DNA of 53,620 nt from an uncultured Bacilli bacterium (GCA_947631035.1 CANRJW010000006.1:1-53620); one strand, 5' to 3'; shown: positions 23,675-48,976, counted from the stretch's first letter. The notes: generated by a model not told the origin, from the sequence alone. Numbers and translations are program-made.

Positions 23675-23699
23675 TTCTATTTTTTGTTAAACTTAAAAA
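23675..23699 (+). repeat. 25-bp target-site duplication, left copy (IS copy 1)
   Basis: The 25 bases here (TTCTATTTTTTG...TTAAAAA) are repeated exactly at 24937-24961 on the other side of the IS. Confidence 0.9.
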
Positions 23700-23899
23700 T
23701 GTGCAATTATAATAGAAATGTGACAGTTATTCCAATTTACCATCAAAATTTCAGGAACCGATAATGTGATGATAAGGCAGAGGCTCAGCAGCGAGTAGCA
23801 AAGCTACAATCTGCCTGAGGCACAGAAGCCTATCACATCATCCCTAAAATTTTAATGTTTTCTCGGCATAAACTTTATCAAAGAAGAAATAATTGCACA
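23700..23899. repeat. 200-nt imperfect palindrome in the IS left end
   Basis: The left-end 11-mer TGTGCAATTAT is matched by ATAATTGCACA at 23889-23899. Between them, further arms pair (CATCAAAATTTCAGG with CCTAAAATTTTAATG; GTGATGATAAGGC with GCCTATCAC; AGGCAGA with TCTGCCT) up to a tip GTAGC-AAA-GCTAC near 23796-23808. The stretch could fold as one long hairpin in DNA or RNA. No protein is supported in these 250 bases before the transposase gene. Confidence 0.75.
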
Positions 23900-23953
23900 G
23901 TGTAGGTTTGTCAAACCAATCCAACTCAATTTTTGGAAAGGAATGAGAAATCT

Positions 23954-24886
23954 ATGAGTAAACCAAAAATTACTCAGCAGATGAGATACCGAGAGTCTCT
24001 CATCAAATACGCCAAAAAACATGGCGTATCCAAAGCTTCTCGTGTTTACAACACGAATAGGCAATACATCTATCGTTGGAGGAAACGTTACAACGGAGAT
24101 GTTCGTTCTCTAGCAAATGAGAGTACAAAACCGAAAAGTCATCCTAATCAGCATACGAAAGAAGAATTAAAGTTAATTCAAGATGTCTTTCGTAAAAACC
24201 AGAATACAGGTTTAGTTGTTCTTTGGGTAAAATTACAACAACGTGGATATTCTAGATCTATTTCTAGTTTATATCATCAGTTAAAAAAATTAAATCTAAA
24301 ATATGTTACTCCAAAGAAACATAAAAAGAAAACAACAAAACCGTATATTCAGATGACTTTTCCTGGTGAACGAGTCCAGATAGATGTAAAAACCGTTCCA
24401 ACAAAATGTATCGTTGGCCAGTTCAAATTTTATCAATATACAGCTATAGATGAATTCTCTCGTTATCGTTACTTAAAAATCTATGAAGAGAAATCAACAT
24501 ACACTTCGTATAAATTTTTATTGGAAGTAATAAAAAGATTTCCATTTAAAATTTATACGATAAGAACGGATAACGGAGTGGAATTCACCAAAAGACTGAT
24601 ATCTAATGATCCAAATGATATTACCATGTTTGAACTTGGCCTTAAAAGAAATGGTATCCATCATGACTTGATCAAACCTTATACACCAAAACATAATGGT
24701 AAGGTTGAACGAAGTCATCGAAAGGATAACGAACGGTTTTATAATTGCCATCGCTTTTATTCATTAGAAGATGCCAATCAACAGTTGCAAGTTTATTTAA
24801 GGGAATATAATAATTTCCCTATGCAACCTCTTAATTGGAAATCTCCTAATGAATTGCTTCGTGATTATTTTAATTTATTAAAATAA
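23954..24886 (+). CDS. DDE transposase of IS copy 1
   Basis: A 310-residue single-frame transposase. The N-terminal part has a helix-turn-helix (YAKKHGVSKASRVYN, then YIYRWRKRY), followed by an integrase core with the acidic triad in VQIDVKTVP (first D), IRTDNGVEF (second D) and HNGKVERSHRKDNE (glutamate). This layout fits the IS481/IS3-like group without a frameshift. ATG 23954 lies a little downstream of GGAAAGGAA; a TTG at 23933 would add seven residues. It is identical in protein sequence to the second copy, with only silent changes seen, so both insertions are recent. Confidence 0.92.
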   Translation: MSKPKITQQMRYRESLIKYAKKHGVSKASRVYNTNRQYIYRWRKRYNGDVRSLANESTKPKSHPNQHTKEELKLIQDVFRKNQNTGLVVLWVKLQQRGYSRSISSLYHQLKKLNLKYVTPKKHKKKTTKPYIQMTFPGERVQIDVKTVPTKCIVGQFKFYQYTAIDEFSRYRYLKIYEEKSTYTSYKFLLEVIKRFPFKIYTIRTDNGVEFTKRLISNDPNDITMFELGLKRNGIHHDLIKPYTPKHNGKVERSHRKDNERFYNCHRFYSLEDANQQLQVYLREYNNFPMQPLNWKSPNELLRDYFNLLK

Positions 24887-24936
24887 TCTATCGTTGGTTT
24901 GTCGTGACTCTGTCACTTTTGTTTGACAAACCTACA

Positions 24937-24961
24937 TTCTATTTTTTGTTAAACTTAAAAA
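24937..24961 (+). repeat. 25-bp target-site duplication, right copy (IS copy 1)
   Basis: Exact repeat of 23675-23699. Confidence 0.9.
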
Positions 24962-24979
24962 AAGTGAGGAAGTATAAAA

Positions 24980-26085
24980 ATGAAAGATGAAGAAATTTTA
25001 GTTAAAGAGAGTCGGGGGGGGGGACTAGAGTATTAATATACGATTGGGTAAGATTGATTGCTATGATTTTAGTTGTTATTGGTCATAGCATGTATTTAAA
25101 TATTACTTCAACTTATGGTAGTATAAATTATACATTGCCTTCAAATATAAGTGATGAATATTTTAGTGGATTATTTACTTTTTTCAAGATGTTACCCACC
25201 TGGATTTATCAGTTCCATATGCCACTTTTTTTTGCTCTATCAGGTGCTGTATTAGCCCTTAAACCTATAAAAAATTTTGACAAATTGTGTAAGGGAAAAT
25301 TTAAGAGATTAATAATACCGTATTTTATTTATGGCTGTTTATTTATGATTCCTATTAAGTATATTAGTGGTTTTTATGTAAATTCTAGTATTTTACCTGC
25401 ACTGAAAGGATTTTTAATTGGAATAGAAGGTAGTCATTTATGGTTTTTACCATCTTTATTTTGGTGCACAATTTCTTTTGCAATTATATATCTTTTGTTC
25501 TCTAAAGTAACTGAGAGTAAATATGTATTGTTGATCGTCACCGGAATAATTCAAATTTTATATAATTATTTGCCTTTTGATGTTTTTTTCTTGAAAATGG
25601 GGTTAAGTTATATATTTTGGTTTGCGTCAGGATTTGTGTTTGAGTTAGAAAGAAAATCTTTACACTATAATTTTAAAAAAAATATGATATATTTTATAAT
25701 AACAATTATATTGGAAATATTAAATTTTAAATATAAGTTTTTTAATTCTTTTTTTGAAATTTTTTGTGGATGTGTTTTTGTATATTTATTAGCAGAAATT
25801 TGTTCATTTCTATTTAAAAAGATAGCAAATAATTCTTTTTGGAAATTGATAATACAAAATTTATTTTTTGTATATTTGTTACATGATCCATTAGAATATT
25901 TAGTTTTAAAGATATTTATGTCACATAATTGGTTAACTACTTCTTATGGGTGTTATTTTTACTTATTTTCTAGAACAATTTTAGTTTTTATGGTTTGCCT
26001 AGTTTTAGGTGTGTTAATAGAAAAATTAAAAAAAATAATTGCAAATTTATTAGGCGATAATTCTTTCCAACAATTAGTGCAATGA
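24980..26085 (+). CDS. Acyltransferase-3 family membrane protein, phase-variable, out of frame here
   Basis: ATG 24980 follows GAGGAAG by 7 bases and reads MKDEEILVKESR into a run of ten G (25014-25023), then stops at 25034-25036 after 18 codons. With eleven G (or eight) the same start runs through TRVLIYDWVRLIAMILVVIG into the whole open frame to 26085, giving 368 residues. That junction is the normal N-terminus of acyltransferase-3 proteins (YDWxRxIAxxxVVxGH, with the catalytic histidine), which move acyl groups onto surface sugars with about ten membrane helices. So the gene is intact apart from the tract and is OFF in this sequence. An internal ATG at 25054 lacks a ribosome site and would lose the first motif. 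Confidence 0.85.
25014..25023 (+). repeat. Poly-G tract (G10), coding phase switch 1
   Basis: Ten G residues in the 12th to 15th codons of the acyltransferase gene. Predicted ON lengths are 8 or 11; the 9- and 10-G forms meet early stops. Confidence 0.9.
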
Positions 26086-26104
26086 AATTTTCCTGTATTA
26101 TCTA

Positions 26105-26133
26105 TTGAAAAATACTATTTTAAATGTTATCAT
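26105..26133 (+). promoter_or_regulatory. Promoter of the GT-C operon
   Basis: TTGAAA at 26105-26110, 17-bp spacer, TATCAT at 26128-26133 with an extended TGT. It serves the genes at 26181, 27791 and 30049. Confidence 0.6.
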
Positions 26134-26180
26134 TATCATGGTTAATTTCCAATTAGTTTGGTAGTATTGTGGGGATAATT

Positions 26181-27776
26181 ATGTTAAAATTAGATGCAAA
26201 AAAACGTAAGATATTGAAAAATATGTTATTTAGTTTAGTTATTTCTGTTATTATGATAACTACTATAATATATAAATTTCCAAAGAATGATTATAATTTT
26301 ATGAATTCGGATGCTGCATGGCATACTTTATTAACCATTGAATCATATAATGAAACGCCGATTAAAACGCATCTTTTTTTGCCAATTGTTAGTTTAGGAA
26401 AACAGATAGACAAAAATATTCCTTGGGGGGCAACAGTTCCTGATCAACAAGGTAATTATTATTATACATCCTTTTCTGCTGCTGGTTATTTTTTTCCATG
26501 GTTATTTATGAAAACATTTCATATGCCAGTAAATTTAAATAGTTTATATGTATTCAATTCTGTGCTTTTTATTGTTTCGGTACTACTTTGGTTTAATTGT
26601 TTGTTAAAAATTTATCAAAAAAGCAAACACCAATATTTTTTAGCAATGATTGGGGCTTTAGTTTATATTTTTGTTCCTGAGGCTTTACATAGTATGGGAA
26701 TTGTATATTGGCATCAATCAATTATGCAAGTAACTTTACTATTACAACTAATTTTTTATTTAAAAATGCAGGAGAATAACAGCAAGATATTTAAGTTTTT
26801 CTTTTATTTTATGACTGTTTTAAATCCATATATTGAGTGGACTGGATATGTTGCAAACATAGGTTATGCTACAGTTGAATTCTTTAAATATTGGAAAGAA
26901 AATAAAAAAATTGCGTTTTTAAAAGTTTTTATAATTGGAATTTTAACAGCCTTTTCTTTTATAATATTTTCTGCACATTATCTTTTAAGGCTTGATTGTG
27001 CTACTTTTATGACTGCTTTAAAATATAGATTTTTAGCACGTAATTATGCATCAACTGTGCCATTGTCCACACTTTTAGGGAAATATTACGATTCATTTAA
27101 ATATTTATGGTTTTTAATTGCTGCTTTAATAGGATGGAATTTACTTAAAAATGAAAAAATTGAAATAAGAAATGGTTTTATAATATTTATTTTACTTTTT
27201 ATGGTACTTGAAAATTTTATTATGGTACAACATGCTGCAACTTATACCTATGATAGGTTAAAACTTATATTTGCTCTATCGTTATTTGTTTGTGAATTAT
27301 GTAGAAATATTTTGGAAAAGGTTAAATATGTAAAATTTAATTATTTTTTAATACTTTCTTTAACAATTTTAATTTGTTTTATGAATTTTAATAAATATTT
27401 AAAGTCAAATTATTTTTGGAATGTAGATTTTTTTGAAGATAATAAAATTATGGCAAATTATATAAATGAAAAATATCCTGAAGCCTTGATTATTATGCCG
27501 GGTCATTTTGTAAGAGGGTATATAAATTTGTTGTTCCATAGAGGAATGTATGAAAGAATAGGATTAGAAGAAGCAAAAAAGATTGCAAAAGAAAGAAATT
27601 GTAACTATATAGTTATTATAGACGCAGAAACTGATACTCGTGGTGTTGATAAAAATTCATCATCTGAACAAGTTTATGAGTTATTAGAAATTCAAGTTTA
27701 TAATATGGAAACTAAAAATATTGAAAAAATAAATTTAGAAAATCATGAGATATTAACAGAAACGTTAAAGGCTTAA
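26181..27776 (+). CDS. Polytopic membrane protein, probable GT-C glycosyltransferase
   Basis: A 531-residue protein with about ten transmembrane helices and a C-terminal soluble part of about 110 residues. After the first helix comes an acidic loop (FMNSDAAWHTLLTIESYNE) and later VPDQQGNYYYTSFSAAGYFF, the type of layout seen in GT-C enzymes that use polyprenyl-phosphate sugars on the outer face of the membrane. No firm family match by eye. I prefer ATG 26181 over a GTG at 26169, which overlaps the GGGGAT site. A G6 run in codons near 26424 is in frame. The next gene follows after 14 bases. Confidence 0.6.
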   Translation: MLKLDAKKRKILKNMLFSLVISVIMITTIIYKFPKNDYNFMNSDAAWHTLLTIESYNETPIKTHLFLPIVSLGKQIDKNIPWGATVPDQQGNYYYTSFSAAGYFFPWLFMKTFHMPVNLNSLYVFNSVLFIVSVLLWFNCLLKIYQKSKHQYFLAMIGALVYIFVPEALHSMGIVYWHQSIMQVTLLLQLIFYLKMQENNSKIFKFFFYFMTVLNPYIEWTGYVANIGYATVEFFKYWKENKKIAFLKVFIIGILTAFSFIIFSAHYLLRLDCATFMTALKYRFLARNYASTVPLSTLLGKYYDSFKYLWFLIAALIGWNLLKNEKIEIRNGFIIFILLFMVLENFIMVQHAATYTYDRLKLIFALSLFVCELCRNILEKVKYVKFNYFLILSLTILICFMNFNKYLKSNYFWNVDFFEDNKIMANYINEKYPEALIIMPGHFVRGYINLLFHRGMYERIGLEEAKKIAKERNCNYIVIIDAETDTRGVDKNSSSEQVYELLEIQVYNMETKNIEKINLENHEILTETLKA

Positions 27777-27790
27777 AGGGGACGTTTAGA

Positions 27791-30026
27791 ATGAAAAAAA
27801 ATAATAATAAGGAAAAGTTGGAAATTGTTTTTTTGCTTCTTTTATTATTTATTCTAGCATTAATTGTGGGAATAAATCGTATTAAAAATTCCGACTTTTC
27901 TCCTACAAATGGCGATTTTCAAAATTATAATCCTGTAAATAGACTCCTTAATGGTCAAATTCCGTATAAAGACTTTGCAGTTTATTTGGGAACTGGGCAT
28001 TTATTTTTAATTTCGGTTGCGTTAATGTTTATTGGGAATACATTTACTAAAAGTTTATTTGTAACCAATGTGCTCACTTTTTTATGCTTTGAATTGTTTA
28101 GTTTTGTAATGAGTTTTTTAATTTTGAAAGATAAAAAGAAATCTTTATATTTAACTTTGGTCTTATCATTATTAAATCTTTGTAGGCCTGTTTTATTAAA
28201 AATTATATTAGATCCTCAAATTTTGGCTTCATTAGATGTTGGTATAGCGCCAGGTTTATCTGCTAGGGCAATAAGAATGGCAGTTATTCCTGCATATATA
28301 TTTTTAATGTATATTGGATTAAAATTATTAAAAAAATCAAAAAATACATTTATTCAAAAACATTTATTGTTTTTACAGAAATTATTTATTGCGTCAATAG
28401 CTGGAATTTCGATTTTATGGAGTAATGATGGTGGAATATCTACTTATATAAGTATTTCTTTTGTCTATTTTCTTGGCCTTTTAAAAAAATATAAGACAAA
28501 TATACTTTCGATAATTAAAAATACTTTTTTATATATTTGTTTAAGTTTTATGTCATTTTTAATAGTTATAACGATTATTACATTAGGTCATCCTTTGGCT
28601 TGGATTAAATTTACATTAGGTGTAAGTTCTTATCAAAGTTGGTATTATTTGAATGCGGTAGATAAGCAAAATGTTAATTTAACTCAAATTAATTCTGAGT
28701 TATTAGTGGCAGTTATGATCTTCTTTGCAGTATTTTATATGGTTAAATTTATAAAAGAAAAAAAATCTAAAAAAAATGAGTTATTTTTTGCTTTATTAAG
28801 CACTTTCTATTTGGCAATCATTGTAAGTATGTATTTATATCAAATAGGTTCTGGTGGAATTTATAAAGATTTTTTGGGGTTAGGCTTATTAGTTACTATA
28901 ATGGCTTTAATTTATAAATATATTAAATTGGAAAACGTGAAAATAAACAGTTTAATAAAAGTTGTAATATTTTTATTTGCTTTTAACACAATTGGCTTAA
29001 ATGTTAGAAATGAAATAAAAAGTTTTAAAAATAGAGATGAAAATAAATATGTTGAGGAATTAGGCGGCTATCTTTCAAATGGTGATACGATAAATTATGT
29101 TATTGATAGATTAAAAGATGAAAAAATATTTTCGGTTTATGCATCAGCAATAAATGCTGCTACACATCAATTTCAACCGACAGGTATAGATTATATAATT
29201 CATGCTTTAGGAGATAAACAACGTGAAGAATACATGAATGTTTTTAGAACTGGTGATTTTAAATATGTTGAAGATTTAGATACGAGTTATTCTTTATATA
29301 ATTGGATAAGTTTTGCTAATTGGTTTTTTTATCGAGAAATGTATAAAAATTATAAACCTTGTTTCGGGGGGGGGGTATAATGTGTTCTATGAAAGAAAAT
29401 TAGATAGTGAAAGAGATGAAAATATTATTGATTTAGATGAATTAGAAATAGACGTTAAAAGAATCACAACATATAAATATGTAATTCATGTGAAAAATAA
29501 TAATAAATTTAAAAATGGTATAGTAGATTTAAAAGTATCTTATCAATCCCACTTTTTAAAAACTTTCTTTAATACTTTGGACATAAAGAAGTATGTTTTT
29601 GTAAAAGATATAAATATAGATAATATGTATCCGGGAGGATTTAATAATTTCAACATTCCAGTAACTTCAAATGAGTATTATTTACCAATTAACGTAATAA
29701 ATGGTGAAGGGGAAATTGAAATATATTCTTATCCATATGAAAATACTAAACTTGACATACAGAATGTTGAAATTGTTGGAATGTATACTGATAGATATAG
29801 ATATATACATGGTAACCCGGCTAAATATGATGAGAATAAAATTTATATAGATAATACCACTGAAAATTCGGTTATTATTGAAGGTGTAACAAAAGTTAAA
29901 ATGGACAATCATAGCGCAGTTATAAGTGATGTTGAAAAAAATGATAAATATATTATCTTAAAAAGTAACGATGATTTGTCTTATTTTCAATATCCTAATT
30001 TTTTTGAAATCATAAAAGGAAAATAG
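27791..30026 (+). CDS. GT-C-like membrane protein, phase-variable, split by a poly-G tract
   Basis: The frame from ATG 27791 (AGGGGAC upstream) gives 529 residues and stops at 29378-29380, just after ten G residues (29366-29375). The sequence beyond is open to 30026 in another frame. With nine or twelve G the two parts join to 744 residues, and the product then aligns without a gap to the intact paralogue at 32923: PCFGGGYNVF against PVFTTDYNVF. The membrane part has the loop SPTNGDFQNYNPVNRLLNGQ then IPYKDFAVYLGTGH, resembling the first loop of GT-C transferases; the C-terminal 215 residues are a soluble beta-rich domain. In this sequence the domain is cut off (OFF or truncated form). Confidence 0.85.
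29366..29375 (+). repeat. Poly-G tract (G10), coding phase switch 2
   Basis: Ten G residues at codons 526-528 of the preceding gene. Nine or twelve G restore the long frame. The paralogue has unrelated bases (ACTACAGAT, encoding TTD) at this position. Confidence 0.9.
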
Positions 30027-30048
30027 CAACATTAAGGAGTGATTACTT

Positions 30049-32847
30049 TTGAGCAAAGTTAATTATGAACAAAATTCTTCTTTTGAATTTATTTTACCAT
30101 CTTTTTTTCTTGCTTTGGTTTTAGTTTTCTTTATTTTTATAAATGTTAATTATTTTCCTACATTTGTTTCAGATGGAATTATTGGTAATGCCATCATTCA
30201 TGGTGTTGATGTTGCTAAAAGAATCGGCGCGTTTTATTTATTAATACTGATTGGTTTACCTATATTAATATTGCTTTTAAATCGTTGTTTTTTTAAAATG
30301 TTTAATAAAATTGATAATGTTTTAAAAAAAGAACTAAATCTGTTGTCTACAATTGGTATTATTGTACTATTTTTGATGTTTATCGGTAAATCACAAAATT
30401 TAACTTTAAATTTATACCCTTCTGTTATTGTAATACTGGAAGTCCTATTTATAATTTTTATTGTCTATTTAATTTATTTAAAAAATGCATTTTTAAATTT
30501 AAAAAATATTAACTGGGCATTTTTAGCATCAATACCCTTCGCACATTTAGGAGCGTTATTTATAAGTCGTTTTCAACAAAATTATTGCTTTGTTATCTTT
30601 TTTTTGATTTATGGGGTTAGTTCAATTCTATTGTTTTTTATTTCAAATTATAAAAAGATCAATTACAATGTTTTACAGAAATCTTTCCTATTTTTACTTT
30701 TAGCACCAATTATGGAAAGTTTATATTTAGAGTTATATAATATATTAAATCAATATAATATTGTAATTAATAGAAAAATTTTAATTATATTTTTGATTTA
30801 TATATTTTGCTTAATTTTAACGGTAATGTATTATGTATTAAATCGAAAACGACAAATAAAATTTGAATATCAAAGAATTTATTATCCTATAATTATACTT
30901 TTATTTTCATTATTTGCGTTGCAAGTTCATTTGATTAATGTTGTAGATACGGATTTTTTTGAGACTGCTAATTCTGGGGAAGGCGTGTTTGAATTTTTTA
31001 AATTTGGCAAGATTCCAATATTAGAAACTTTTGATGCCCATATGTTAAAGTATCAAATTTGGGGAATACTATATAGTTTAATAAACCATGACGTTTTTGG
31101 CGGTGTATTTTGTTATGAAGTAGGCTATATTGCTATCGCCTCTATAATAAGTTATTTAATCATATATGTTTTTCTTAGTAAATTTATTTCTCGAGATTTA
31201 TCTTTTTTAACAGTTTTATTTTTACCATTAACTTTTGATTTAGGATTATGGAATTTTGCTTTTGCTTTAATTCCAGTATTATTTTTGTTAAAGGCTGTAG
31301 AAAAGAAAACTACTATTTCTTATGCAATTTTTTGGTTGTCTGTGGTTTTATTATGTTTTTATCAATTGGATATGGGAGCAGCTGTTACTATTTCGGCTGT
31401 AATATTACTAATTTATTTAAATCGAACTGATAAGCAAAAAATTTTGAAAGTTTTTAAACCATTAATATTGTTAATTGTATGCATTTTTGCACTATATCTG
31501 ACTTTATGTTATATAAAGGATATTAATCCAACTTATAGATTATTGGAATTTTTAAAAATATCATTATCAAATGCAAATTGGGCATTGGATAGTATTGGAA
31601 ATACGGAAAAATTGTCTTATACAATTTATTATTTTATATTTCCAATGTTTATGATTTTATCTTTACTCTTTTTATTTCATAAAAATAAAAAAGATTGGAA
31701 TATCAAAAATATAGCATTAATATTTTTAAATTTGATTTATATTTTTAATTTTCAACGTGGTTTGGTCCGTCATTCTTTGATTGAGAATGATTATTATCGT
31801 GGCGCTAGTTTTTTTCTTATATATTTTGTTTTATTTTTATATGAATATAGATTTAGGAGTAATAAAAAAATAAAATTTCTTTTAGTGTATGCAACTGTTA
31901 TAGTGTTCTCTTCATTTTTATCAAACGGAGATGCGCTTCATTATAACAATTTAATAAATAATTCAGTAGTAAATTATACTAGTTTTGCTTTTCATAATGA
32001 AAAAGCAAAGGAGAAGGTTAAAAGATTTGTATTATCATCTGAAATGAATGCAGAAATAAAAGATTTGAATGCTTTGTTAAATATTTTACTAGAGAAAAAT
32101 GAAACTTACTTGGATTTTAGCAATCAAACATTATTATATGCTTTATTTAATAGGGAAAAACCTGTATATGTAAATCAATCTCCGGGTTTAATTAATGGTG
32201 AATTCTTGCAACAATTATTTTTAAATGAAATTGATCATTTTTCTAAGGAAGTTCCAGTTGTAATTAAGGCGTATAATAAAAAATTATCTAACTCTATGGA
32301 TGGCATACCAAATGATTACCGCTATTTTTTGATTAGTGAACGACTTTTTCAAGACTATCAACCATTGGCATTAACAAATGATTATGAAATATGGGTAAAA
32401 AATGATAGATTTGATGATATGAAACATAAGATTGAATACATGAAAAATGTTACGTTAATCGAAAAAGAAAATTATGAAGAAAAGCAAACAACTATAGATT
32501 TATTTTACCTACCATATATTATAGGAACAACGAATAATGAATATCATTCTCTTAAATCTTCTTATAATAATGAATTAACATTTGTTAATGAATTAATTGA
32601 TAAAAGAAAAGGCAATTATGTGGAAATCGCAATAGAGAGCAAATTTGACACAGAAGCAACTCTTTATGCAATTTTTGACAATAAATTAGTCAAAAGTTAT
32701 AATTTTTTTGTAAAAGCAGGAGTACATAAATATTCGATAAGAATTAGTACTTTGTATGAATGGTATGAAAACATTAATAAATTAATAGTTGATACAAATG
32801 ATCTGGAAAATACACGGGTTAATGCTGTATCTATTATGCAAAATTAG
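30049..32847 (+). CDS. Large polytopic membrane protein, probable GT-C glycosyltransferase
   Basis: A 932-residue protein. It starts at TTG 30049, seven bases after a strong AAGGAGTGA; I see no ATG with a ribosome site nearby. Residues 1-285 hold about nine hydrophobic helices. A second membrane unit follows after the loop DTDFFETANSGEGVFEFFKF and GKIPILETFDAHML at about 300-330, a GT-C-like acidic loop (compare GQIPYKDFAVYLG in the neighbour). The last 300 residues are soluble. It is the third gene of the operon starting at 26181, 22 bases after the end of the split gene. Likely role: adding or moving a sugar on a polyprenyl-linked glycan outside the cell. Confidence 0.65.
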   Translation: MSKVNYEQNSSFEFILPSFFLALVLVFFIFINVNYFPTFVSDGIIGNAIIHGVDVAKRIGAFYLLILIGLPILILLLNRCFFKMFNKIDNVLKKELNLLSTIGIIVLFLMFIGKSQNLTLNLYPSVIVILEVLFIIFIVYLIYLKNAFLNLKNINWAFLASIPFAHLGALFISRFQQNYCFVIFFLIYGVSSILLFFISNYKKINYNVLQKSFLFLLLAPIMESLYLELYNILNQYNIVINRKILIIFLIYIFCLILTVMYYVLNRKRQIKFEYQRIYYPIIILLFSLFALQVHLINVVDTDFFETANSGEGVFEFFKFGKIPILETFDAHMLKYQIWGILYSLINHDVFGGVFCYEVGYIAIASIISYLIIYVFLSKFISRDLSFLTVLFLPLTFDLGLWNFAFALIPVLFLLKAVEKKTTISYAIFWLSVVLLCFYQLDMGAAVTISAVILLIYLNRTDKQKILKVFKPLILLIVCIFALYLTLCYIKDINPTYRLLEFLKISLSNANWALDSIGNTEKLSYTIYYFIFPMFMILSLLFLFHKNKKDWNIKNIALIFLNLIYIFNFQRGLVRHSLIENDYYRGASFFLIYFVLFLYEYRFRSNKKIKFLLVYATVIVFSSFLSNGDALHYNNLINNSVVNYTSFAFHNEKAKEKVKRFVLSSEMNAEIKDLNALLNILLEKNETYLDFSNQTLLYALFNREKPVYVNQSPGLINGEFLQQLFLNEIDHFSKEVPVVIKAYNKKLSNSMDGIPNDYRYFLISERLFQDYQPLALTNDYEIWVKNDRFDDMKHKIEYMKNVTLIEKENYEEKQTTIDLFYLPYIIGTTNNEYHSLKSSYNNELTFVNELIDKRKGNYVEIAIESKFDTEATLYAIFDNKLVKSYNFFVKAGVHKYSIRISTLYEWYENINKLIVDTNDLENTRVNAVSIMQN

Positions 32848-32876
32848 TAATTCAATTATTTGATAAATTATTGGAA

Positions 32877-32905
32877 TTGACGGGGGGGGGGGATAATGTT
32901 ATAAT
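32877..32905 (+). promoter_or_regulatory. Promoter with poly-G spacer, transcriptional phase switch 3
   Basis: -35 TTGACG (32877-32882) and extended -10 TGT-TATAAT (hexamer 32900-32905) are separated by exactly 17 bp. Eleven G residues (32882-32892) make the last base of the -35 and ten bases of the spacer. Any slippage would move the spacing away from the optimum. As sequenced, the promoter is at its ON length. Confidence 0.85.
32882..32892 (+). repeat. Poly-G tract (G11) in a promoter spacer
   Basis: Eleven consecutive G residues between two AT-rich flanks, 30 bases ahead of the start codon at 32923. Confidence 0.95.
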
Positions 32906-32922
32906 TTTTATGGTGTAGTTTT

Positions 32923-35205
32923 ATGAATTTCAATTTATCAAATAAGTTAACTCAAATAAAAAGTAAAAAAATATTATTTCCAATTGCAATGGTGTTAATT
33001 TTAGTTGTTCTTGCTATAATTGTAGGCATTGACAGAATGACATTATCGGATTTTGTTCCTATCAATGGTGATTTTCAAAATTATAATCCAGTGCGTAGAT
33101 TTCTAAATGGTCAAATTCCTTTTAAAGATTTTGGAGTTTATTTAGGAACTGGTCATTTACTATTATTATCTTTTTTTCAAATCATTTTTGGATTTATTTT
33201 TGGAAATAATTTCACTACTAGTTTAATGGTTAGTAATATGGTTACGTTTCTTGCTTTTGAGATAACTGTTTTTTTTCTAAGTTTTTTGATAACGAAAAGT
33301 AAAAAGGGCTCTTTTTATATTACGTTAACTTTTGCTATTATCAATATCACTAGACCAGAGTTTTTGGTAAACAACATTGATGATGTAATTTTAAGTGCTT
33401 TGGATTTTGGATTAAAATCCGGAAATTCTGCAAGATTAATTAGGATTATTGTTGCACCTTTATCAGCAATATTATTGTATTACGTAATCAATAAAATAAA
33501 TACAGTTTTAACTACAACTTCAAAAAAGATATTTCTTTCAAAAATTGTATTTGCTATTATTGGAGGAATATGTATTTTATGGAGCAATGATGGAGGGGTT
33601 GCTACTTATTTGGCTATATCATTTGTATATTTTCTAATTTTAATAAAAGAACATAAAAAAAATGTACTTCTTATCTTGAGAGATGTATTGATGTATATTG
33701 TGATAAGTATAATTTCTTTTTTGGCAGTTTTAGTTATTATTACTCGTGGTAATGTTTTGTCATGGTTTAATTTTACGACACAAATAGGTTCTTATCAAAA
33801 ATGGTATTATTTTGAAGCGCCTGCTAAAATGAATATTTCACTATTAAATGTTGATTTAAATGTTTATAATATAATATTAATTATCGTTTCGAGTTATTAT
33901 GTTTATTTACTTTTTAAATCCAAGGATAAAAAATCAATTTTTAATTATGCATTAATACTTATTATTGTTTTATCGTCTATAATTTCTTGCTATTTTTATC
34001 AACTTTTTGCTGGAAGAATATCAAGAGATATGCTAATATTGGTTTTCTTAATTGTAATATTTAGTTACATTTATAAAATTTTTTACAGTATTATAAATAA
34101 TACTCATAACCGAACTTTTATTTTTAATGTTGGAAAAGGGTTTGCAATTATTTGCGCAAGTGCTGTAATAATTAATAGATGTGGACTTATTATTAATAAC
34201 ATAAAAAATAGAAATTTAAATAATGAAATTATTTATATAAAAGAATTGGACGGATATTTTTCAGAATATGGTGCTAGTATTAAAAATGCGATTGATGAAA
34301 TTGAGGGTAAAAAAATTTTTTCAACCTATGCATCTGCATTAGAAGCGGCTACAAATCAATTTCAACCTACCGGTATTGATTATATTATACATTGTATGGG
34401 CGATAAGCAAAGACAAGAATATTTAAAAATTTTTAATCAAGGCGATTTTGATTATGTTACAACAGTGGATAAACAAAATGTATATTCTAGTAAATGGATA
34501 ATTAATGCAAATTGGTTTTTTTATCGTGAATTATATAAAAATTATAAGCCTGTGTTTACTACAGATTATAATGTTTTTTGGGAAAAAAGCGACGAAGTAC
34601 CTATTGCAGATCAAAATGTTGAGGTTAAACAAAGTAAGGCCAATGATCATCAATATAATATAACTGTATCAACGGATGATAAAACTTTTTCTGGGATGGT
34701 AGATTTAAAATTGTCATATGATAGTACCTTTAAAAGAAGTTTTTTTAAAAGTTTGGATTTAAATAAATATGTTTATGTTAAAGATATAACGGGTAAAACG
34801 ATTTTAGAAGATCAAGATGAAATTATTAATTTTAATATTCCTAATAATTCAACTGAATATTATATACCGGTAACTGTTATTAACGGAGTTGGTAAGATAC
34901 AAATTGTAAGTTATCCGTTAAATAATACGAAGTTAAACATTGATAATGTAGAGGTAGTAGACTCATATGGTGGATTATTTAAATATGCTGTATTAAGTAA
35001 AAATAAAAAAATTAGTAATAATACTTTATATGTTGACAATACATTAGAAAATCAAGTTATTTTAAATGGTGTAAAATTCATAAAAATCGGAGATATTGAA
35101 CAAGAAATTATAGGCTATAATGAAACTGATGATTATATAGAGTTAAAAGTTGAAAAAAATGCATCCAAGTTTAAGTATCCTAATTATTTCGAAGTAATAA
35201 AATAG
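32923..35205 (+). CDS. GT-C-like membrane protein, intact paralogue under a poly-G promoter
   Basis: A 760-residue protein closely related along its whole length to the split gene at 27791. The first loop reads VPINGDFQNYNPVRRFLNGQ then IPFKDFGVYLGTGH; shared later blocks include ILWSNDGG, FQPTGIDYIIH and NWFFYRELYKNYKP. About eleven membrane helices fill residues 15-420; a soluble beta-rich C-terminal domain spans about 540-760. The coding region has no poly-G tract; instead its promoter carries one. ATG 32923 has GGTG seven bases upstream. The chemistry (sugar transfer from a polyprenyl phosphate) is inferred from the GT-C-like loop only. Confidence 0.75.
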   Translation: MNFNLSNKLTQIKSKKILFPIAMVLILVVLAIIVGIDRMTLSDFVPINGDFQNYNPVRRFLNGQIPFKDFGVYLGTGHLLLLSFFQIIFGFIFGNNFTTSLMVSNMVTFLAFEITVFFLSFLITKSKKGSFYITLTFAIINITRPEFLVNNIDDVILSALDFGLKSGNSARLIRIIVAPLSAILLYYVINKINTVLTTTSKKIFLSKIVFAIIGGICILWSNDGGVATYLAISFVYFLILIKEHKKNVLLILRDVLMYIVISIISFLAVLVIITRGNVLSWFNFTTQIGSYQKWYYFEAPAKMNISLLNVDLNVYNIILIIVSSYYVYLLFKSKDKKSIFNYALILIIVLSSIISCYFYQLFAGRISRDMLILVFLIVIFSYIYKIFYSIINNTHNRTFIFNVGKGFAIICASAVIINRCGLIINNIKNRNLNNEIIYIKELDGYFSEYGASIKNAIDEIEGKKIFSTYASALEAATNQFQPTGIDYIIHCMGDKQRQEYLKIFNQGDFDYVTTVDKQNVYSSKWIINANWFFYRELYKNYKPVFTTDYNVFWEKSDEVPIADQNVEVKQSKANDHQYNITVSTDDKTFSGMVDLKLSYDSTFKRSFFKSLDLNKYVYVKDITGKTILEDQDEIINFNIPNNSTEYYIPVTVINGVGKIQIVSYPLNNTKLNIDNVEVVDSYGGLFKYAVLSKNKKISNNTLYVDNTLENQVILNGVKFIKIGDIEQEIIGYNETDDYIELKVEKNASKFKYPNYFEVIK

Positions 35206-35254
35206 TACAAAAAATTGTTTTGCATTATTTTTAATTTTATAAATTGTATTCAAA

Positions 35255-35279
35255 TTATATAAAAATATAAAATTGTTGT
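35255..35279 (+). repeat. 25-bp target-site duplication, left copy (IS copy 2)
   Basis: The 25 bases beginning TTATATAAAAATATAAAA are repeated exactly at 36517-36541. Confidence 0.9.
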
Positions 35280-36516
35280 TGTAGGTTTGTCAAACAAAAG
35301 TGACAGAGTCACGACAAACCAACGATAGATTATTTTAATAAATTAAAATAATCACGAAGCAATTCATTAGGAGATTTCCAATTAAGAGGTTGCATAGGGA
35401 AATTATTATATTCCCTTAAATAAACTTGCAACTGTTGATTGGCATCTTCTAATGAATAAAAGCGATGGCAATTATAAAACCGTTCATTATCCTTTCGATG
35501 ACTTCGTTCAACCTTACCATTATGTTTTGGTGTATAAGGTTTGATCAAGTCATGATGGATACCATTTCTTTTAAGGCCAAGTTCAAACATGGTAATATCA
35601 TTTGGATCATTAGATATCAGTCTTTTGGTGAATTCCACTCCGTTATCCGTTCTTATCGTATAAATTTTAAATGGAAATCTTTTTATTACTTCCAATAAAA
35701 ATTTATACGAAGTGTATGTTGATTTCTCTTCATAGATTTTTAAGTAACGATAACGAGAGAATTCATCTATAGCTGTATATTGATAAAATTTGAACTGGCC
35801 AACGATACATTTTGTTGGAACGGTTTTTACATCTATCTGGACTCGTTCACCAGGAAAAGTCATCTGAATATACGGTTTTGTTGTTTTCTTTTTATGTTTC
35901 TTTGGAGTAACATATTTTAGATTTAATTTTTTTAACTGATGATATAAACTAGAAATAGATCTAGAATATCCACGTTGTTGTAATTTTACCCAAAGAACAA
36001 CTAAACCTGTATTCTGGTTTTTACGAAAGACATCTTGAATTAACTTTAATTCTTCTTTCGTATGCTGATTAGGATGACTTTTCGGTTTTGTACTCTCATT
36101 TGCTAGAGAACGAACATCTCCGTTGTAACGTTTCCTCCAACGATAGATGTATTGCCTATTCGTGTTGTAAACACGAGAAGCTTTGGATACGCCATGTTTT
36201 TTGGCGTATTTGATGAGAGACTCTCGGTATCTCATCTGCTGAGTAATTTTTGGTTTACTCATAGATTTCTCATTCCTTTCCAAAAATTGAGTTGGATTGG
36301 TTTGACAAACCTACACTGTGCAATTATTTCTTCTTTGATAAAGTTTATGCCGAGAAAACATTAAAATTTTAGGGATGATGTGATAGGCTTCTGTGCCTCA
36401 GGCAGATTGTAGCTTTGCTACTCGCTGCTGAGCCTCTGCCTTATTATCACATTATCGGTCCCTGAAATTTTGATGGTAAATTGGAATAACTGTCACATTT
36501 CTATTATAATTGCACA
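35280..36516 (-). mobile_element. Insertion sequence copy 2 (1,237 bp, inverted relative to copy 1)
   Basis: Same length and ends as copy 1: on the plus strand it opens with TGTAGGTTTGTCAAAC and closes with ATAATTGCACA. It has its own, different 25-bp target duplication, so it arrived by a separate transposition. A few substitutions against copy 1 are visible in the palindromic left end (for example AGGGACCG for AGGAACCG) and one silent change in the transposase gene. It separates the intact GT-C paralogue from the RgpF-like gene and leaves the latter's promoter untouched. The palindrome lies at 36317-36516. Confidence 0.9.
35330..36262 (-). CDS. DDE transposase of IS copy 2
   Basis: 310 residues, identical in protein sequence to the transposase of copy 1, with the same helix-turn-helix and D-D-E core. 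The start is the ATG ending at 36262, matching the choice for copy 1. It faces away from the polysaccharide locus. Since both copies are whole, either can supply transposase in trans. Confidence 0.92.
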   Translation of the reverse strand: MSKPKITQQMRYRESLIKYAKKHGVSKASRVYNTNRQYIYRWRKRYNGDVRSLANESTKPKSHPNQHTKEELKLIQDVFRKNQNTGLVVLWVKLQQRGYSRSISSLYHQLKKLNLKYVTPKKHKKKTTKPYIQMTFPGERVQIDVKTVPTKCIVGQFKFYQYTAIDEFSRYRYLKIYEEKSTYTSYKFLLEVIKRFPFKIYTIRTDNGVEFTKRLISNDPNDITMFELGLKRNGIHHDLIKPYTPKHNGKVERSHRKDNERFYNCHRFYSLEDANQQLQVYLREYNNFPMQPLNWKSPNELLRDYFNLLK

Positions 36517-36541
36517 TTATATAAAAATATAAAATTGTTGT
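36517..36541 (+). repeat. 25-bp target-site duplication, right copy (IS copy 2)
   Basis: Exact repeat of 35255-35279; the promoter of the next gene begins five bases further on. Confidence 0.9.
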
Positions 36542-36615: not shown

Positions 36616-39360
36616 ATGGATAAAGATAAAAAAATAAAGGATTTAATGGAACAGTTGAATTATAAAGAAGAACAATTGCTAAATATAAATAATAAATATT
36701 TTGAGATTATAAATAGCAAATCATGGAGATTGGTATGTATTTTACAAACAATTAAAAAGTATATTTTAAATCCAAAATTAATTTTGCAAAAGTGCAAAAT
36801 AATTTATCCTACTAAAAATGCTATTTATTATGATAATGATATATGTTATCAAAAAAATGATAATTATGATAATAGAAAAACAGACATAAAAGCAATAAGT
36901 TTTTATTACAATCATTATTATGTTAATCAATCGAATTGTTCTATTAAATTTAAAAATCACTATATACCTCAAAAAATTGATGAAAGTAATAATAAATTAA
37001 TGAACGAGATAAAAAAGGACATCAATTTAGCTAAAACACATGGTATTTACGGCTTTTCCATTTGTTTTGATATCGATAAAGATAAAAAGCAATACGATAT
37101 TTTAGATCAATTTATTAATCATCCTTACATTGAATATCCTTTTTGCATTTGTTTGGATGTTAATTATTTATCTAATAGTGAATTTGATTTTGATAAGAAT
37201 AAGATAATTATAAAAAAATTAGTTAATAGTCTCCAAAAGTACCTTTCAGATAAATGCTATATTAAACTTAATTCAAAACCAGTTATAATTTTGTCGTACA
37301 AAACCGATAAAATAATAAATGTAGATTTAGTGATAAGTAGTTTAAGAGAAGAATTAAAAGAGGTTGGAATTGATCAAATATATGTAATTTTTAAAACAAA
37401 TTTTACAAGTAGTTTAAAGGCTATCAATAAAAGTGATGCTGTTTTATTAGACACATATAATTTTAATGAAATGGACTTTTGTAAGTTATTTGATTTAAAA
37501 AATAATGGTAAAGTATATGATTATTCTTTAATGGTGGATAGTATTATTAATAAATATAAAGAACTTAAGTACGATAAAAACATGTTTTTTTCAACATTAG
37601 TTGGTTACGACGACTCTTTTAAGAATAAGGATTATAATATATTACATCATTTTACATTGGATAGTTTCTATAAATGGAATAGAGAAATAATCAATATATT
37701 ACGAAATAAGCAAGGTACAAATAGTAGATTTTTATTTCTTGAATCATGGAATAATTGGTTAGAAGGCAATTTTTTAGAGCCAGATAAAAATAACGGATAT
37801 GCTATACTCAACACTTTATCTAAATCTATATTTGATGTTCCTTATCATGAGGAATTAGTGATTAATAATTCTAATTCTAAATTTGAATTAATTAATAAAA
37901 AAATTGCGGTGCAAATCCATTTATTTTATGAAGATTTATGTCAAGAAATAATTCGACAACTTAATAATATTCCATATAATTTTGATTGTTTTATAACTAC
38001 AGATACAAATACCAAAAAAAATAGAATCGAGCAAAATTTTCAAAAATATTGTAAGGCCAAACATGTTTATATTGATGTAACTAAAAATTGCGGAAGAGAT
38101 GTAGCACCTTTTATTTTACAAATGAGTCAAGAATATAAGAATTATGATTATTTATGTCATATTCATACTAAAAAAAGTACATCTGTTGACTTTGGGGATG
38201 ATTGGCGTAAATATTTATATCGAAATTTATTTGGAAGCAATCAAAATGTTAGGCATATTTTTGAAATATTTGAAAACAATCCTAATGTAGGTTTAATATA
38301 TCCTTGTATATATCCTGTAGTATGCCAACATGTTTTAAATTTAGATGTGAATCGTAATCCTTGTTTGCTTCAATTAAAAAAATTAAAATTACCTGTAAGT
38401 TATATAAATAATAAATGGTATTTTCCTGCCGGTACTATGTTTTGGGCTCGTATGGATGCCATAAACACTATTTTTCAAGAGAATTATACTTATGATGATT
38501 TTGAAAATGAAACAGGGCAATTAGATGCAACGCCAGCACATGCAATTGAGAGAATATTTTGCAATTTGGCTAAATTTAAAGGTTATAAATATTTAAAAAC
38601 ATATAATAATTCCGTAAGTTTTGTTCCTGAACTAAAAAAAAGGATAATTTTGTTTGCTCATTTTGATGAAAATGGAATTGTTTCTTATGAAGATGAAGAG
38701 TACTTAATGGCTTTAAAAAATTATGCGAGTAAGGTAATTTTCATTACAAATGTCAAAAAGGAGAATATTCCTCATAAAGAAAGTAAGGACGTTATATTGG
38801 AAAGTGAATTAGGATATGATTTTGGAGCATGGAAGACGGCAATTCGTTTTTTGGGCGAAAAAGAACTTCTTGAGTATGATGAAATAATTTTTGCAAATAA
38901 TAGTAGAGTACTATCGGGTATATCATATGATGAATTTTTTTCGAGTTTTAATGAAACTTCTATAAAGACTTTATGTTATCATACGAAAGAAAATTCTCAA
39001 GATTATGATTATATTAGTTCTGATTTAATGGTGTTTCCAAATAAAGTATTCTGTAAACCTTATGTTTTAAATTTTTTTGAAAATGTTCCTGATTGTGATA
39101 ATTTAGTTGATAAAAAGAAAGAATGTAATTATAATTTAACTAAATTATTAGAACAAAAAAAGGTTGAAATTAAAGTTTTTATAAATGAAACTAAGTATTT
39201 TTATAAATATATTGTAGATGGTTTAATAGATATTAAATATCCTTATATGATGTTATTATTAAATAGTCCTTCTTTAAATAAAAAATCTTTATATTATATG
39301 AGTGAAAATCAAAAAATGCATGTAAATAATCTTTTAAATCAATTAAAACAACGAAAATAA
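36616..39360 (+). CDS. Polysaccharide biosynthesis protein: coil + WbsX-like + RgpF-like domains
   Basis: A 914-residue multi-domain protein. Residues 1-33 are a short coiled coil followed by SKSWRLVCILQ (34-44). Residues 90-410 match the WbsX/GH99-like family: DIKAISFYYNHYYVNQSN, THGIYGFSICF and the diagnostic SWNNWLEGNFLEPDKNNGYA. Residues 425-660 are RgpF-like (rhamnan synthesis): AVQIHLFYEDL, NCGRDVAPFIL, HIHTKKS and FPAGTMFWARMDA. A third segment (670-880) again resembles RgpF (ILFAHFDENG, SELGYDFGAWKTAI). RgpF proteins take part in rhamnose-containing wall polysaccharides. Start ATG 36616 follows AGTAGGTG. Next gene begins 26 bases on. Confidence 0.8.
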   Translation: MDKDKKIKDLMEQLNYKEEQLLNINNKYFEIINSKSWRLVCILQTIKKYILNPKLILQKCKIIYPTKNAIYYDNDICYQKNDNYDNRKTDIKAISFYYNHYYVNQSNCSIKFKNHYIPQKIDESNNKLMNEIKKDINLAKTHGIYGFSICFDIDKDKKQYDILDQFINHPYIEYPFCICLDVNYLSNSEFDFDKNKIIIKKLVNSLQKYLSDKCYIKLNSKPVIILSYKTDKIINVDLVISSLREELKEVGIDQIYVIFKTNFTSSLKAINKSDAVLLDTYNFNEMDFCKLFDLKNNGKVYDYSLMVDSIINKYKELKYDKNMFFSTLVGYDDSFKNKDYNILHHFTLDSFYKWNREIINILRNKQGTNSRFLFLESWNNWLEGNFLEPDKNNGYAILNTLSKSIFDVPYHEELVINNSNSKFELINKKIAVQIHLFYEDLCQEIIRQLNNIPYNFDCFITTDTNTKKNRIEQNFQKYCKAKHVYIDVTKNCGRDVAPFILQMSQEYKNYDYLCHIHTKKSTSVDFGDDWRKYLYRNLFGSNQNVRHIFEIFENNPNVGLIYPCIYPVVCQHVLNLDVNRNPCLLQLKKLKLPVSYINNKWYFPAGTMFWARMDAINTIFQENYTYDDFENETGQLDATPAHAIERIFCNLAKFKGYKYLKTYNNSVSFVPELKKRIILFAHFDENGIVSYEDEEYLMALKNYASKVIFITNVKKENIPHKESKDVILESELGYDFGAWKTAIRFLGEKELLEYDEIIFANNSRVLSGISYDEFFSSFNETSIKTLCYHTKENSQDYDYISSDLMVFPNKVFCKPYVLNFFENVPDCDNLVDKKKECNYNLTKLLEQKKVEIKVFINETKYFYKYIVDGLIDIKYPYMMLLLNSPSLNKKSLYYMSENQKMHVNNLLNQLKQRK

Positions 39361-39386
39361 AATATTCGGTAAGAAAGGACCTAAAT

Positions 39387-41258
39387 ATGAAATTAAACTT
39401 AAAATTTTATAATGGTAATGATGCTTATAGTGATGGTGATATCGAAGATAAAATAATTGAATACATTAAAAAATATCCTGATAACTATGAAGAAGCATTT
39501 AAAGAAGATAGTTCATGGCCTGTTTTTTATCATTTGTCTGATATGCGTAAAAACGTGATAAGGTGGTATCCTTTTGAAAAAAATAGCACAATTTTAGAGG
39601 TTGGGGCTGGAATGGGTGCTATAACGGACGAATTATGTAGAAGATGCAAAAAAGTTACAAGTATTGAATTGTCTAAGAAAAGAGCAACCGCAATTTTAGA
39701 AAGAAATAAAAATGCTAAAAATTTAGAGATAATTGTTGGGAATTATAATGATATTGTGCTAAAAGAAAAATATGATTATATACTTTTGAATGGGGTATTA
39801 GAGTATGGAAAACTTTATATGAATTCAGAAAATCCATATGAAGATTTTATAAATAAATTAAAACTAAATTTGAAATCAACCGGAAAAATCTTAGTTGCTA
39901 TAGAAAACCGATTTGGACTCAAGTATTGGTGTGGTGCAAATGAGGATCATACAAATATTCCGTTTGATAGTATACAAGGATATAAGCACAATAAGAATAT
40001 AGTAACATTTAGCAAGTATGAACTAGAGAAATTAGCCCAAAATTGTAATTTAAATATCAATTTTTATTATTTATTTCCAGATTATAAATTTACAAAGGTG
40101 GTTTATACTGATGATTCTATACATAAAGACTTGTATACATGTTATTCACCATACTATTATGCCAAAATGAATTTAGTTATAAACGAGCAACCTCTTTACG
40201 AAGATATTTATAAAAATAACAAATTGGATTTTTTTGCTAATTCTTTTTTTGTTGAATTATCATTAAATAAAAATGAATCAAAAGTTAAATATGCTAAATT
40301 TAATAATGAATATAGAAAAGATAAATATAATTTTTGCACTCTTTTTAAAGATAATAAATTTTATAAAGTACTTTTTTGTGATGACGCAAGAGAAAAAATA
40401 ATTGAAATAAAACAAATAGCACACTATTTGGAACGAAAAGGAATAAATATAGTTAAACTTCATTCGACCAAGAGTGGTGTTTATAGTAATAAAGTAACTG
40501 GAGAAAGTTTAAATTCAATATTATTAAATTTATATGAGAAGCATAATTTAAAAGAAATTTATAACATCTTTGATACTATTGAAAAATTAATTATAAAAAG
40601 TTGTTATAAAAAAATGAATAATTATGGCGTAACGGTGTTTAATAAGTATCAAATGAAGATTTCAAAAAATGAATTGGATAAAATGCGTTTTTATGAAAGA
40701 GGAATTTTGGATATTATTCCAAGTAATATTATAGTGCAAGAAGATAATTACGTTTTAATTGATCAGGAGTGGTGGGAAGAAAAAATTCCGATTGAATATG
40801 TAATGTATCGTGCTATTTTTAATACTTTTTATTGTGTTGATCAAGATATTATGCAGGTATTATTTAATAGATATAATATAAATGCAACGATTTTCGAAAA
40901 ATTGGAAGAAAAATTTATTAATAGTATAAAGAGGGATTCTTTTGCTTCTTTTTCAAAGTATTTAAATAATTCAACTTTTATTGTAAATATTAATGAATTA
41001 CAAAACAATTATGATTTATTACTGCGTAGTAATAGCGAATTGCAGAACAATTATGATATATTAAAGAAAAATTATTCAGAATTGCAAACTAAATATGAGC
41101 AAATAGAAAATGAAGAAATAAATATAATTAATCAAAACAAAAATTTAAGTAGCGAATTAAAATTATATAAAGATAAATTTGAACAAATTTTGCAAAGTAA
41201 AAGGTATAGGGTGATTTCTTATATAGCCGATTTAAAAAATAAAGTCACGAAAAAATAA
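39387..41258 (+). CDS. WbdD-like protein: SAM methyltransferase + kinase-like domain + coiled coil
   Basis: A 623-residue protein. Residues 40-230 are a class I methyltransferase with motif I ILEVGAGMGAITDE (69-82) and SIELS (motif II acid E94). Residues 290-530 look like a degenerate protein/small-molecule kinase: a KVLF lysine near 325, then ERGILDIIPSNIIVQ with DYVL-like LIDQEWW (about 434-462), matching the catalytic D/N and metal D positions. Residues 535-600 are a coiled coil with NELQNNYD/SELQNNYD repeats, closing with SKRYRVISYIADLKNK. This order matches WbdD, which caps O9a O-antigen chains by phosphorylation and methylation and uses its coil as a ruler. Function by analogy. ATG follows GAAAGGA. 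Confidence 0.7.
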   Translation: MKLNLKFYNGNDAYSDGDIEDKIIEYIKKYPDNYEEAFKEDSSWPVFYHLSDMRKNVIRWYPFEKNSTILEVGAGMGAITDELCRRCKKVTSIELSKKRATAILERNKNAKNLEIIVGNYNDIVLKEKYDYILLNGVLEYGKLYMNSENPYEDFINKLKLNLKSTGKILVAIENRFGLKYWCGANEDHTNIPFDSIQGYKHNKNIVTFSKYELEKLAQNCNLNINFYYLFPDYKFTKVVYTDDSIHKDLYTCYSPYYYAKMNLVINEQPLYEDIYKNNKLDFFANSFFVELSLNKNESKVKYAKFNNEYRKDKYNFCTLFKDNKFYKVLFCDDAREKIIEIKQIAHYLERKGINIVKLHSTKSGVYSNKVTGESLNSILLNLYEKHNLKEIYNIFDTIEKLIIKSCYKKMNNYGVTVFNKYQMKISKNELDKMRFYERGILDIIPSNIIVQEDNYVLIDQEWWEEKIPIEYVMYRAIFNTFYCVDQDIMQVLFNRYNINATIFEKLEEKFINSIKRDSFASFSKYLNNSTFIVNINELQNNYDLLLRSNSELQNNYDILKKNYSELQTKYEQIENEEINIINQNKNLSSELKLYKDKFEQILQSKRYRVISYIADLKNKVTKK

Positions 41259-41286
41259 TTGGCATATCAAACAAAAAATGTATTAA

Positions 41287-41316
41287 TTGACAAAATTAAT
41301 TATAGAATTGTATTAT
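41287..41316 (+). promoter_or_regulatory. Promoter of the RgpF/HAD gene
   Basis: TTGACA at 41287-41292, 18-bp spacer, TATTAT at 41311-41316 (TATAAT three bases further gives a 21-bp spacer). Confidence 0.5.
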
Positions 41317-41359
41317 AATAGTATTCTATAAAAAAATTTATTGTAAAAGAGTTGAAAAA

Positions 41360-44422: not shown

Positions 44423-44555
44423 ATATATTCTTTTAATTTCAAAGATGTTTAGGAAATTGTAAAAAAATTATTTAGTAGATAGATATGAAATGAAATTTAC
44501 AAAGAAAAATTTTTTACTTTAATCCGGAAACGGTAAATATATATTTTATTAGAAT

Positions 44556-44587
44556 AAAAGTACACTTATAATAACTAGTGTACTTTT
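44556..44587 (+). terminator. Hairpin after the RgpF/HAD gene
   Basis: 10-bp perfect stem AAAAGTACAC (44556-44565) with GTGTACTTTT (44578-44587), 12-base loop. The T tail is interrupted, so termination is likely but not certain. The rest of the 253-base gap shows no gene. Confidence 0.55.
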
Positions 44588-44628
44588 AATTTATCCTTTT
44601 TTGTAAAAAATTACAGAGTTGTATAGAA

Positions 44629-44657
44629 TAGACACAAGTTTGAATATTTAGTATAAT
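44629..44657 (+). promoter_or_regulatory. Promoter of the GT2 gene at 44676
   Basis: TAGACA at 44629-44634, 17-bp spacer, TATAAT at 44652-44657. Confidence 0.6.
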
Positions 44658-44675
44658 TGTAATTGAGGTAATCCT

Positions 44676-45527: not shown

Positions 45528-45540
45528 ATAAAAAAATTTA

Positions 45541-45630: not shown

Positions 45631-45637
45631 AAAGCGC

Positions 45638-45643: not shown

Positions 45644-45667
45644 TAGTGTAATTTAGGAGCAAAGAAA

Positions 45668-48974: not shown

Positions 48975-48976
48975 AA

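Follow-up and report, generated by a model that had tools for sequence, protein, structure and literature searches.

Three poly-G tracts between two insertion sequence copies

The stretch of DNA analyzed here (the window) comprises 53,620 nucleotides from an uncultured Bacilli bacterium (GCA_947631035.1, CANRJW010000006.1:1-53620); a block at positions 24937-35279 carries three long runs of guanine in or directly before genes for a putative membrane acyltransferase and two paralogous GT-C-like glycosyltransferases (Table 1). The block is the exact gap between two 1239-bp copies of an insertion sequence (IS), which are inverted relative to each other and 100% identical. A preliminary description had placed every long G run of the window in this block, with nothing above six G outside it, and both statements were borne out: all three runs lie there on the plus strand, the next longest is a single G6, itself inside the block, and C runs do not exceed five. 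Nine-G matches number 7 in the window, against 0.04 ± 0.20 expected from dinucleotide-preserving shuffles of it. GGG makes up only 9% of the glycine codons in 18 open reading frames (ORFs) of the window, so that a triple GGG is rare without a reason.

Tract 1 lies close to the N terminus of the acyltransferase (PF01757; E 3e-20, 73 bits versus a curated cutoff of 31). From the likely start codon, which is preceded by GTGAGGAAG, the frame reaches the tract as ...KES-R-GGG and at G10, the assembled length, meets an early stop; at G11 or G8 it would stay open and continue as GGG-TRVLIYDWVRLIAM into the Acyl_transf_3 protein. An alternative TTG start at 25054 would drop the DWxR start of the domain. 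A homolog in genome G017 (locus L154; 51% identical) has a run at the same site, ATGAAAGATGATGAAATTTTAGTTAAAGAGAGTCA-G9-TTCTAGAG, and is open, and a second homolog, at locus L081 of a metagenome-assembled genome (MAG), has a G10 run there and is also open; the site of tract 1 is thus conserved, with length and phase differing. This conservation across species makes tract 1 the best supported of the three. In G009, an acyltransferase carries an independent G run at a different site.

Tract 2 stands inside the gene for GT-C paralog 1, where the ORF of the core part terminates as ...YKPCFGGGV*; G9 or G12 would fuse it to the C-terminal frame. The two paralogs are 48% identical in the core part and 42% in the C-terminal part. 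A structure model of paralog 2 (17 sequences; predicted local distance difference test score, 84.5; predicted template modeling [pTM] score, 0.85) has the GT-C membrane fold: residues 9-558 match oligosaccharyltransferase (OST) at Z 11.9 (root mean square deviation [rmsd] 6.5, 413 residues aligned), the top-ranked chains being GT-C, and ArnT at Z 11.1 (rmsd 6.2, 426 aligned). From residue 563 onward the model forms a beta-sandwich that resembles CBM35 domains and the C-terminal domains of alpha-galactosidase (Z about 6, rmsd about 3, 81-99 aligned), and on this basis we tentatively call the C-terminal region (563-686 in the VIA ranking) carbohydrate-binding module (CBM)-like. A Foldseek search with the whole model gave weak E-values, and the few large secreted-complex chains retrieved, with TM-scores near 0.09, were judged to be spurious matches to the beta domain. 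Likeness to OST/STT3 and ArnT thus lies in the predicted core fold, whereas the paralogs are only 6-12% identical to those enzymes, possess the CBM-like region, and have no Pfam match. An alignment around the invariant W531 maps tract 2 to residues 546-548, close to the core end, so that only the carbohydrate-binding-like part would be missing from the short form. The invariant NGDFQNYN loop (N48-G-D50-F-Q-N-Y-N) would be retained; it follows the first helix in a stretch modeled with low confidence, and D50 may be the acidic residue expected of GT-C enzymes in the first extracytoplasmic loop. Rabbit MAGs labeled Clostridia or Bacilli contain the nearest named relatives of the GT-C gene; a GT-C homolog in G001 carries a G10 run of its own at a different place, in frame and about 120 residues past the start.

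Since both genes are closed as assembled, IS copies flank the block, and the block is patchy within the genus, the acyltransferase gene and GT-C paralog 1 might be taken for pseudogenes in which the G runs are inert. Both frames, however, are open over their full length except at the tract, with no further lesion seen, and the tract 1 run stands in the open phase in homologs; we consider decay very unlikely.

The preliminary description had also put the two paralogs under different types of switch, and this holds, tract 2 lying in a reading frame and tract 3 in a promoter spacer. Directly upstream of the ATG of paralog 2 (32923), a homopolymer makes up most of the spacer between two recognizable hexamers; G11 sets this spacer at 17, the optimum, so that the promoter is predicted to be ON as assembled. 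At L080, L081, and L085 in relatives, the GT-C gene directly adjoins the preceding gene or overlaps with it, which makes the tract 3 promoter a local gain.

Table 1. Tracts, genes, and other features in and around the IS-bounded block (window positions)
Feature	Position	Strand	Remarks
Left IS copy	23698-24936	+	Transposase 23933-24886, rve domain
Acyltransferase gene (Acyl_transf_3)	24980-26085	+	From likely ATG 24980 across tract 1 to stop; open part as assembled 25054-26085 or slightly more
Tract 1, G10	25014-25023	+	Candidate reading-frame switch; closed as assembled
Multipass membrane protein, 535 aa	26169-27776	+	No G run, no Pfam match
GT-C paralog 1, core part	27791-29380	+	Frame closed directly after tract 2
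C-terminal frame of GT-C paralog 1	29313-30026	+	42% identical to paralog 2 residues 532-760
Tract 2, G10	29366-29375	+	Candidate internal frame switch between GT-C core and CBM-like C-terminal region; assembled in the short form
Multipass membrane protein, 932 aa	30049-32847	+	No G run, no Pfam match
12/12 consensus promoter-like site	32675-32703	+	Inside upstream ORF; about 0.15 expected (own estimate), so possibly chance
-35 hexamer TTGACG of tract 3 promoter	32877-32882	+	
Tract 3, G11	32882-32892	+	Candidate promoter-spacer switch; spacer 17 as assembled
-10 hexamer TATAAT	32900-32905	+	Extended -10 TG
GT-C paralog 2, full length, 760 aa	32923-35205	+	GT-C core and CBM-like C-terminal region
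Right IS copy	35280-36518	-	Inverted, identical to left copy
Neighboring cell wall glycan genes	36616-52428	+	RgpF-domain proteins, methyltransferase, GT2 and GT4 transferases, ABC-2 exporter pair; not every ORF is glycan related

A genome-wide set of G runs and its 5' module

The three tracts do not stand in isolation, an idea that we rejected on finding 60 runs of at least eight G across the draft genome (1.43 Mb in 82 contigs, 92.7% complete). Counted from seven G upward there are 62, with lengths of G10 (50 runs), G11 (5), G9 (4), G7 (2), and G8 (1). The preliminary description had proposed a scan for runs of eight or more as a check and held that similar runs spread at random would refute its reading; this outcome was half borne out, the runs being spread across the genome but occupying positions in surface or prophage-type genes where they could act as switches. 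About 47 belong to a single repeated element of about 150 bp (most of the loci L032-L079), which forms the 5' end of a gene family with the pattern MNNFKKNLPTERNSR-LGGG-YYLDNN... and which consists of promoter, ribosome site, start, 15 codons, the G run, and about 10 further codons, followed by unlike surface proteins. At G9, most copies of this module read into several hundred open codons, the exceptions being four that are cut short by a contig end and one or two with damage further along. A stop follows within 8 codons when the run is G10 or G11. Four copies are G9 and open, and 43 are closed (39 at G10, 3 at G11, and 1 at G8). About ten more family members lack the module, and none of these has a G run.

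The module is far better conserved than what it precedes. Upstream, in steps of 25 nucleotides, identity between protein types A and B is 87%, 87%, and 62%, much as within type A (89%, 85%, and 60%); past the first 25-50 bases downstream, unlike protein types are only 24-37% identical. The C-terminal parts of the family are mosaic, with a lectin/FGE-like domain (a weak Pfam match, below the cutoff) and an ALK_LTK_GRD domain among them. The idea that a diversity-generating retroelement produces the variable C termini in this lectin-like family was rejected, as the reverse transcriptase family PF00078 had no match in the 92.7% complete genome while controls were detected.

Homologous sites differ in length, both at tract 1 compared with L154 and L081 and among the module copies, which range from G8 to G11. 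Near-identical flanks surround unequal runs: two mismatches in 85 bases separate a G9 from a G10 copy, and likewise a G8 from a G10 copy. These comparisons bear on the possibility of assembly or sequencing error, by which the real lengths would differ, the broken frames would be artefactual, and the genes would be plainly intact. Homopolymers are error prone, the genome is an 82-contig draft, and an obvious poly-G/poly-C artefact occurs in one relative (G018:C87). Error, however, would not account for runs far above chance that recur at homologous sites of independent genomes or for lengths of G8 to G11 next to near-identical flanks, and the switch geometry would survive wrong lengths; we give this explanation very little weight.

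The same length distribution could be read as programmed slippage, in which one base is skipped during transcription or translation of a fixed G10 run and a set fraction of full-length protein is made while the DNA length stays constant. Such recoding would fit the 39 of 47 module copies that have a run of exactly G10 and lie a single base from the open frame, and module copies of G003, G012, and G015, as read from sequence matches, show the same pattern. Against it, copies at G8, G9, and G11 exist, unrelated genes are open at G10 (L059, L081, and L160), and recoding cannot explain G runs in promoter spacers. We regard programmed slippage as improbable.

Module copies (for example, L036, L037, and L032) also contain a conserved C-rich AACCTCCCAACC that is able to pair with the GGAGG Shine-Dalgarno sequence or with poly-G, and this pairing may form a second layer of control. 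Taken further, the G run might act mainly in the messenger RNA, by pairing with a C-rich leader or a small RNA, for which RepG of Helicobacter pylori, as outlined in PMC8295292, would be a precedent. The leader of tract 1, however, has no such pairing (z -1.37), and tracts 1 and 2 are closed by frame change alone, so that control chiefly at the RNA level appears most improbable. An Rfam scan of the window and nine G-run loci found ribosomal and transfer RNAs only.

Several G runs outside the module likewise stand at positions where length would matter. Two BspA-type surface proteins are closed at G10 (L042, with DUF285, and L053, assigned by similarity), and a lipoprotein with Listeria-Bacteroides repeats is open at G10 (L059); two further lipoproteins (L060 and L072) lie downstream of TTGACT-N8-G10-TATAAT promoters with a spacer of 18. 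At L031, L076, and L051 (the last two on the reverse strand), the run lies within a short leader ORF; read in the suitable frame, this ORF ends across the start of the gene that follows (TAATG in two cases), which looks prophage tail-like at two loci (Mtd_N-like and DUF6273) and is collagen-like at one. This arrangement suggests translational coupling to the next gene. Support for coupling comes from the stop/start overlap, because a hairpin covering the ribosome site reaches significance at L031 (z -2.98) and fails to do so at L076 (z 0.20). A search of IMG/VR with the prophage-type tail protein of L031 returned zero relatives. At L052 (reverse strand, 3002-3011), a G10 run lies between the end of a transfer RNA gene and a protein gene, with no explanatory promoter or leader ORF.

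Distribution in the genus and the preferred length

Runs of at least nine G were found in all 21 other species of the genus examined (2 to 76 per genome), compared with 0 to 38 in other genera of the family and 0 to 7 in the rest of the class. Promoters with a poly-G spacer form a recurrent class in the genus (TTGACA-N-G8..11-TATAAT, spacers mostly 16-19): 41 were counted in 15 of the 22 genus genomes, the 38 genomes from outside the genus had none, and the reversed pattern does not occur. Homologs of the module family are present in 22 of 22 genus genomes, with G runs at varying sites. Three genomes from other genera of the family (G042, G048, and G038) contain 22-38 long G runs, possibly reflecting a second origin or a spread of the same system. 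In G018, poly-C and poly-G stand back to back at C87:4117-4224, an apparent assembly artefact that calls for caution with counts from drafts.

The preference for G10 does not follow the reading frame or the promoter spacing. Among unrelated genes with coding tracts at G10, some are open and some closed, and in spacer promoters G10 is the commonest length whether the spacer is 17, 18, or 19. A peak that is irrespective of frame or spacer points to a mutational set point rather than a selected frame, as in Campylobacter, where G9 accounts for 53% and G10 for 26% (PMC6321876). With a frame shared throughout a big family and a set point at G10, the usual state of the module genes would be closed, one base off open.

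Probable slippage and surface variation, and known counterparts

We consider it highly probable that the G runs are simple-sequence contingency tracts whose length is altered by slipped-strand mispairing during replication, and that those of the block vary a cell wall polysaccharide. A frame change at tract 1 would turn the membrane acyltransferase on or off; at tract 2, the glycosyltransferase would alternate between a core-only form and one with the core and the carbohydrate-binding-like C-terminal region; and at tract 3, a change in the -35/-10 spacer would tune transcription of the full-length paralog. The assembled states are predicted to be OFF, short, and ON, respectively. RgpF domains, GT2 and GT4 transferases, and an ABC-2 exporter encoded nearby make a cell wall glycopolymer the likely target, and the three tracts would jointly vary the decoration of this polysaccharide. 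The excess of the runs over chance, their switch geometry, their distribution in genome and genus, and the length differences between homologous sites are observed directly; from these we infer that slippage takes place in living populations, with effects on expression and on the glycan.

A combinatorial system of three switches had been proposed in the preliminary description. All three tracts are indeed placed so that a change in length would alter the frame or promoter spacing of a surface-related gene, but the system is not self-contained, its tracts being 3 of about 60, of a kind common to the whole genus and mostly in one 5' module. Three of 60 uniformly placed tracts would fall within 7.9 kb somewhere with a P of about 0.90, or about 0.03 if only the roughly 15 nonfamily tracts are used. 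Eight glycan states would require independent switches and a single polymer as the target of all three products.

Several observations weigh against this account. Each of the three tracts is known at one length, from assemblies with one genome per species, and the gene order of the block depends on assembly across identical IS copies. This IS is multicopy in the genome, with pieces at several contig ends (C75, C21, C34, C51, and others), which indicates that the assembly was broken by it. The sharp peak at G10 is unexpected for a freely drifting tract without a mutational set point, and GT-C homologs at L080, L082-L085, L114, and L118 have no G run. At tract 3, the perfect consensus site 170 bases upstream may bypass the switch, and same-strand genes upstream may likewise transcribe paralog 2; if the consensus site also drives this gene, tract 3 would be a tuner rather than an on/off switch.

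A broader reading, toward which we lean only slightly, is that poly-G phase variation across the genus is built around a portable module, with about 47 copies before unlike surface proteins. Most copies would be one base from open, so that few members of a large silent library are displayed per cell, and the same run length would have been reused in spacer promoters, at the domain boundary of tract 2, and in leader ORFs of prophage-type tail genes.

The most familiar poly-G contingency systems are those of Gram-negative mucosal bacteria (Campylobacter, Helicobacter, and Neisseria), and we found no account in the open-access literature of poly-G phase variation in this kind of uncultured bacterium. 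The closest likeness is to the Campylobacter phasome, with 5-81 phase-variable genes per strain (PhasomeIt, PMC6321876): both have dozens of tracts in a small AT-rich genome, a narrow length peak (9-10 in Campylobacter), and tracts mainly in the frames of surface-modification genes. Here, in contrast, a single 5' module, repeated within one surface-protein family, accounts for most tracts, spacer promoters recur, and the host belongs to an uncultured genus of Bacillota. The family also resembles vlhA of Mycoplasma gallisepticum (PMC6258824), a large set of surface proteins with a repeat-length switch at each copy and few predicted to be open; vlhA, however, has GAA repeats upstream of the promoter, whereas the G run here is in the coding start, and mutually exclusive expression is not part of the likeness. 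G runs at receptor-binding genes of Campylobacter phages (Sorensen 2021, cited in PMC11868660) recall L031 and L076, although the present runs sit in a leader ORF whose end falls on the start codon of the tail-type gene.

For tract 3, the counterparts are in Neisseria, where porA has a promoter homopolymer whose length tunes transcription. The same principle is described for opc in PMC6389960, which cites Sarkari 1994; the homopolymer of opc is poly-C, whereas at tract 3 a G run separates a good -35 from a good, extended -10 hexamer, and the gene that follows encodes a glycosyltransferase.

If populations vary in tract length, existing metagenome reads could be used to follow surface switching in wild host-associated bacteria. 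Such variation would also mean that many surface genes listed as broken in consensus genomes of the genus are in fact intact, and the copying of a module to positions before unlike proteins would provide a route by which switchable antigens multiply in a genome.

Elsewhere in the window, two tandem arrays of a 33-bp repeat, with 2.5-2.8 copies each, lie at 45540-45631 and 49789-49868, and a protein of 610 aa with an SH3-like domain and a type I dockerin domain at its C terminus is encoded at 9070-10902.

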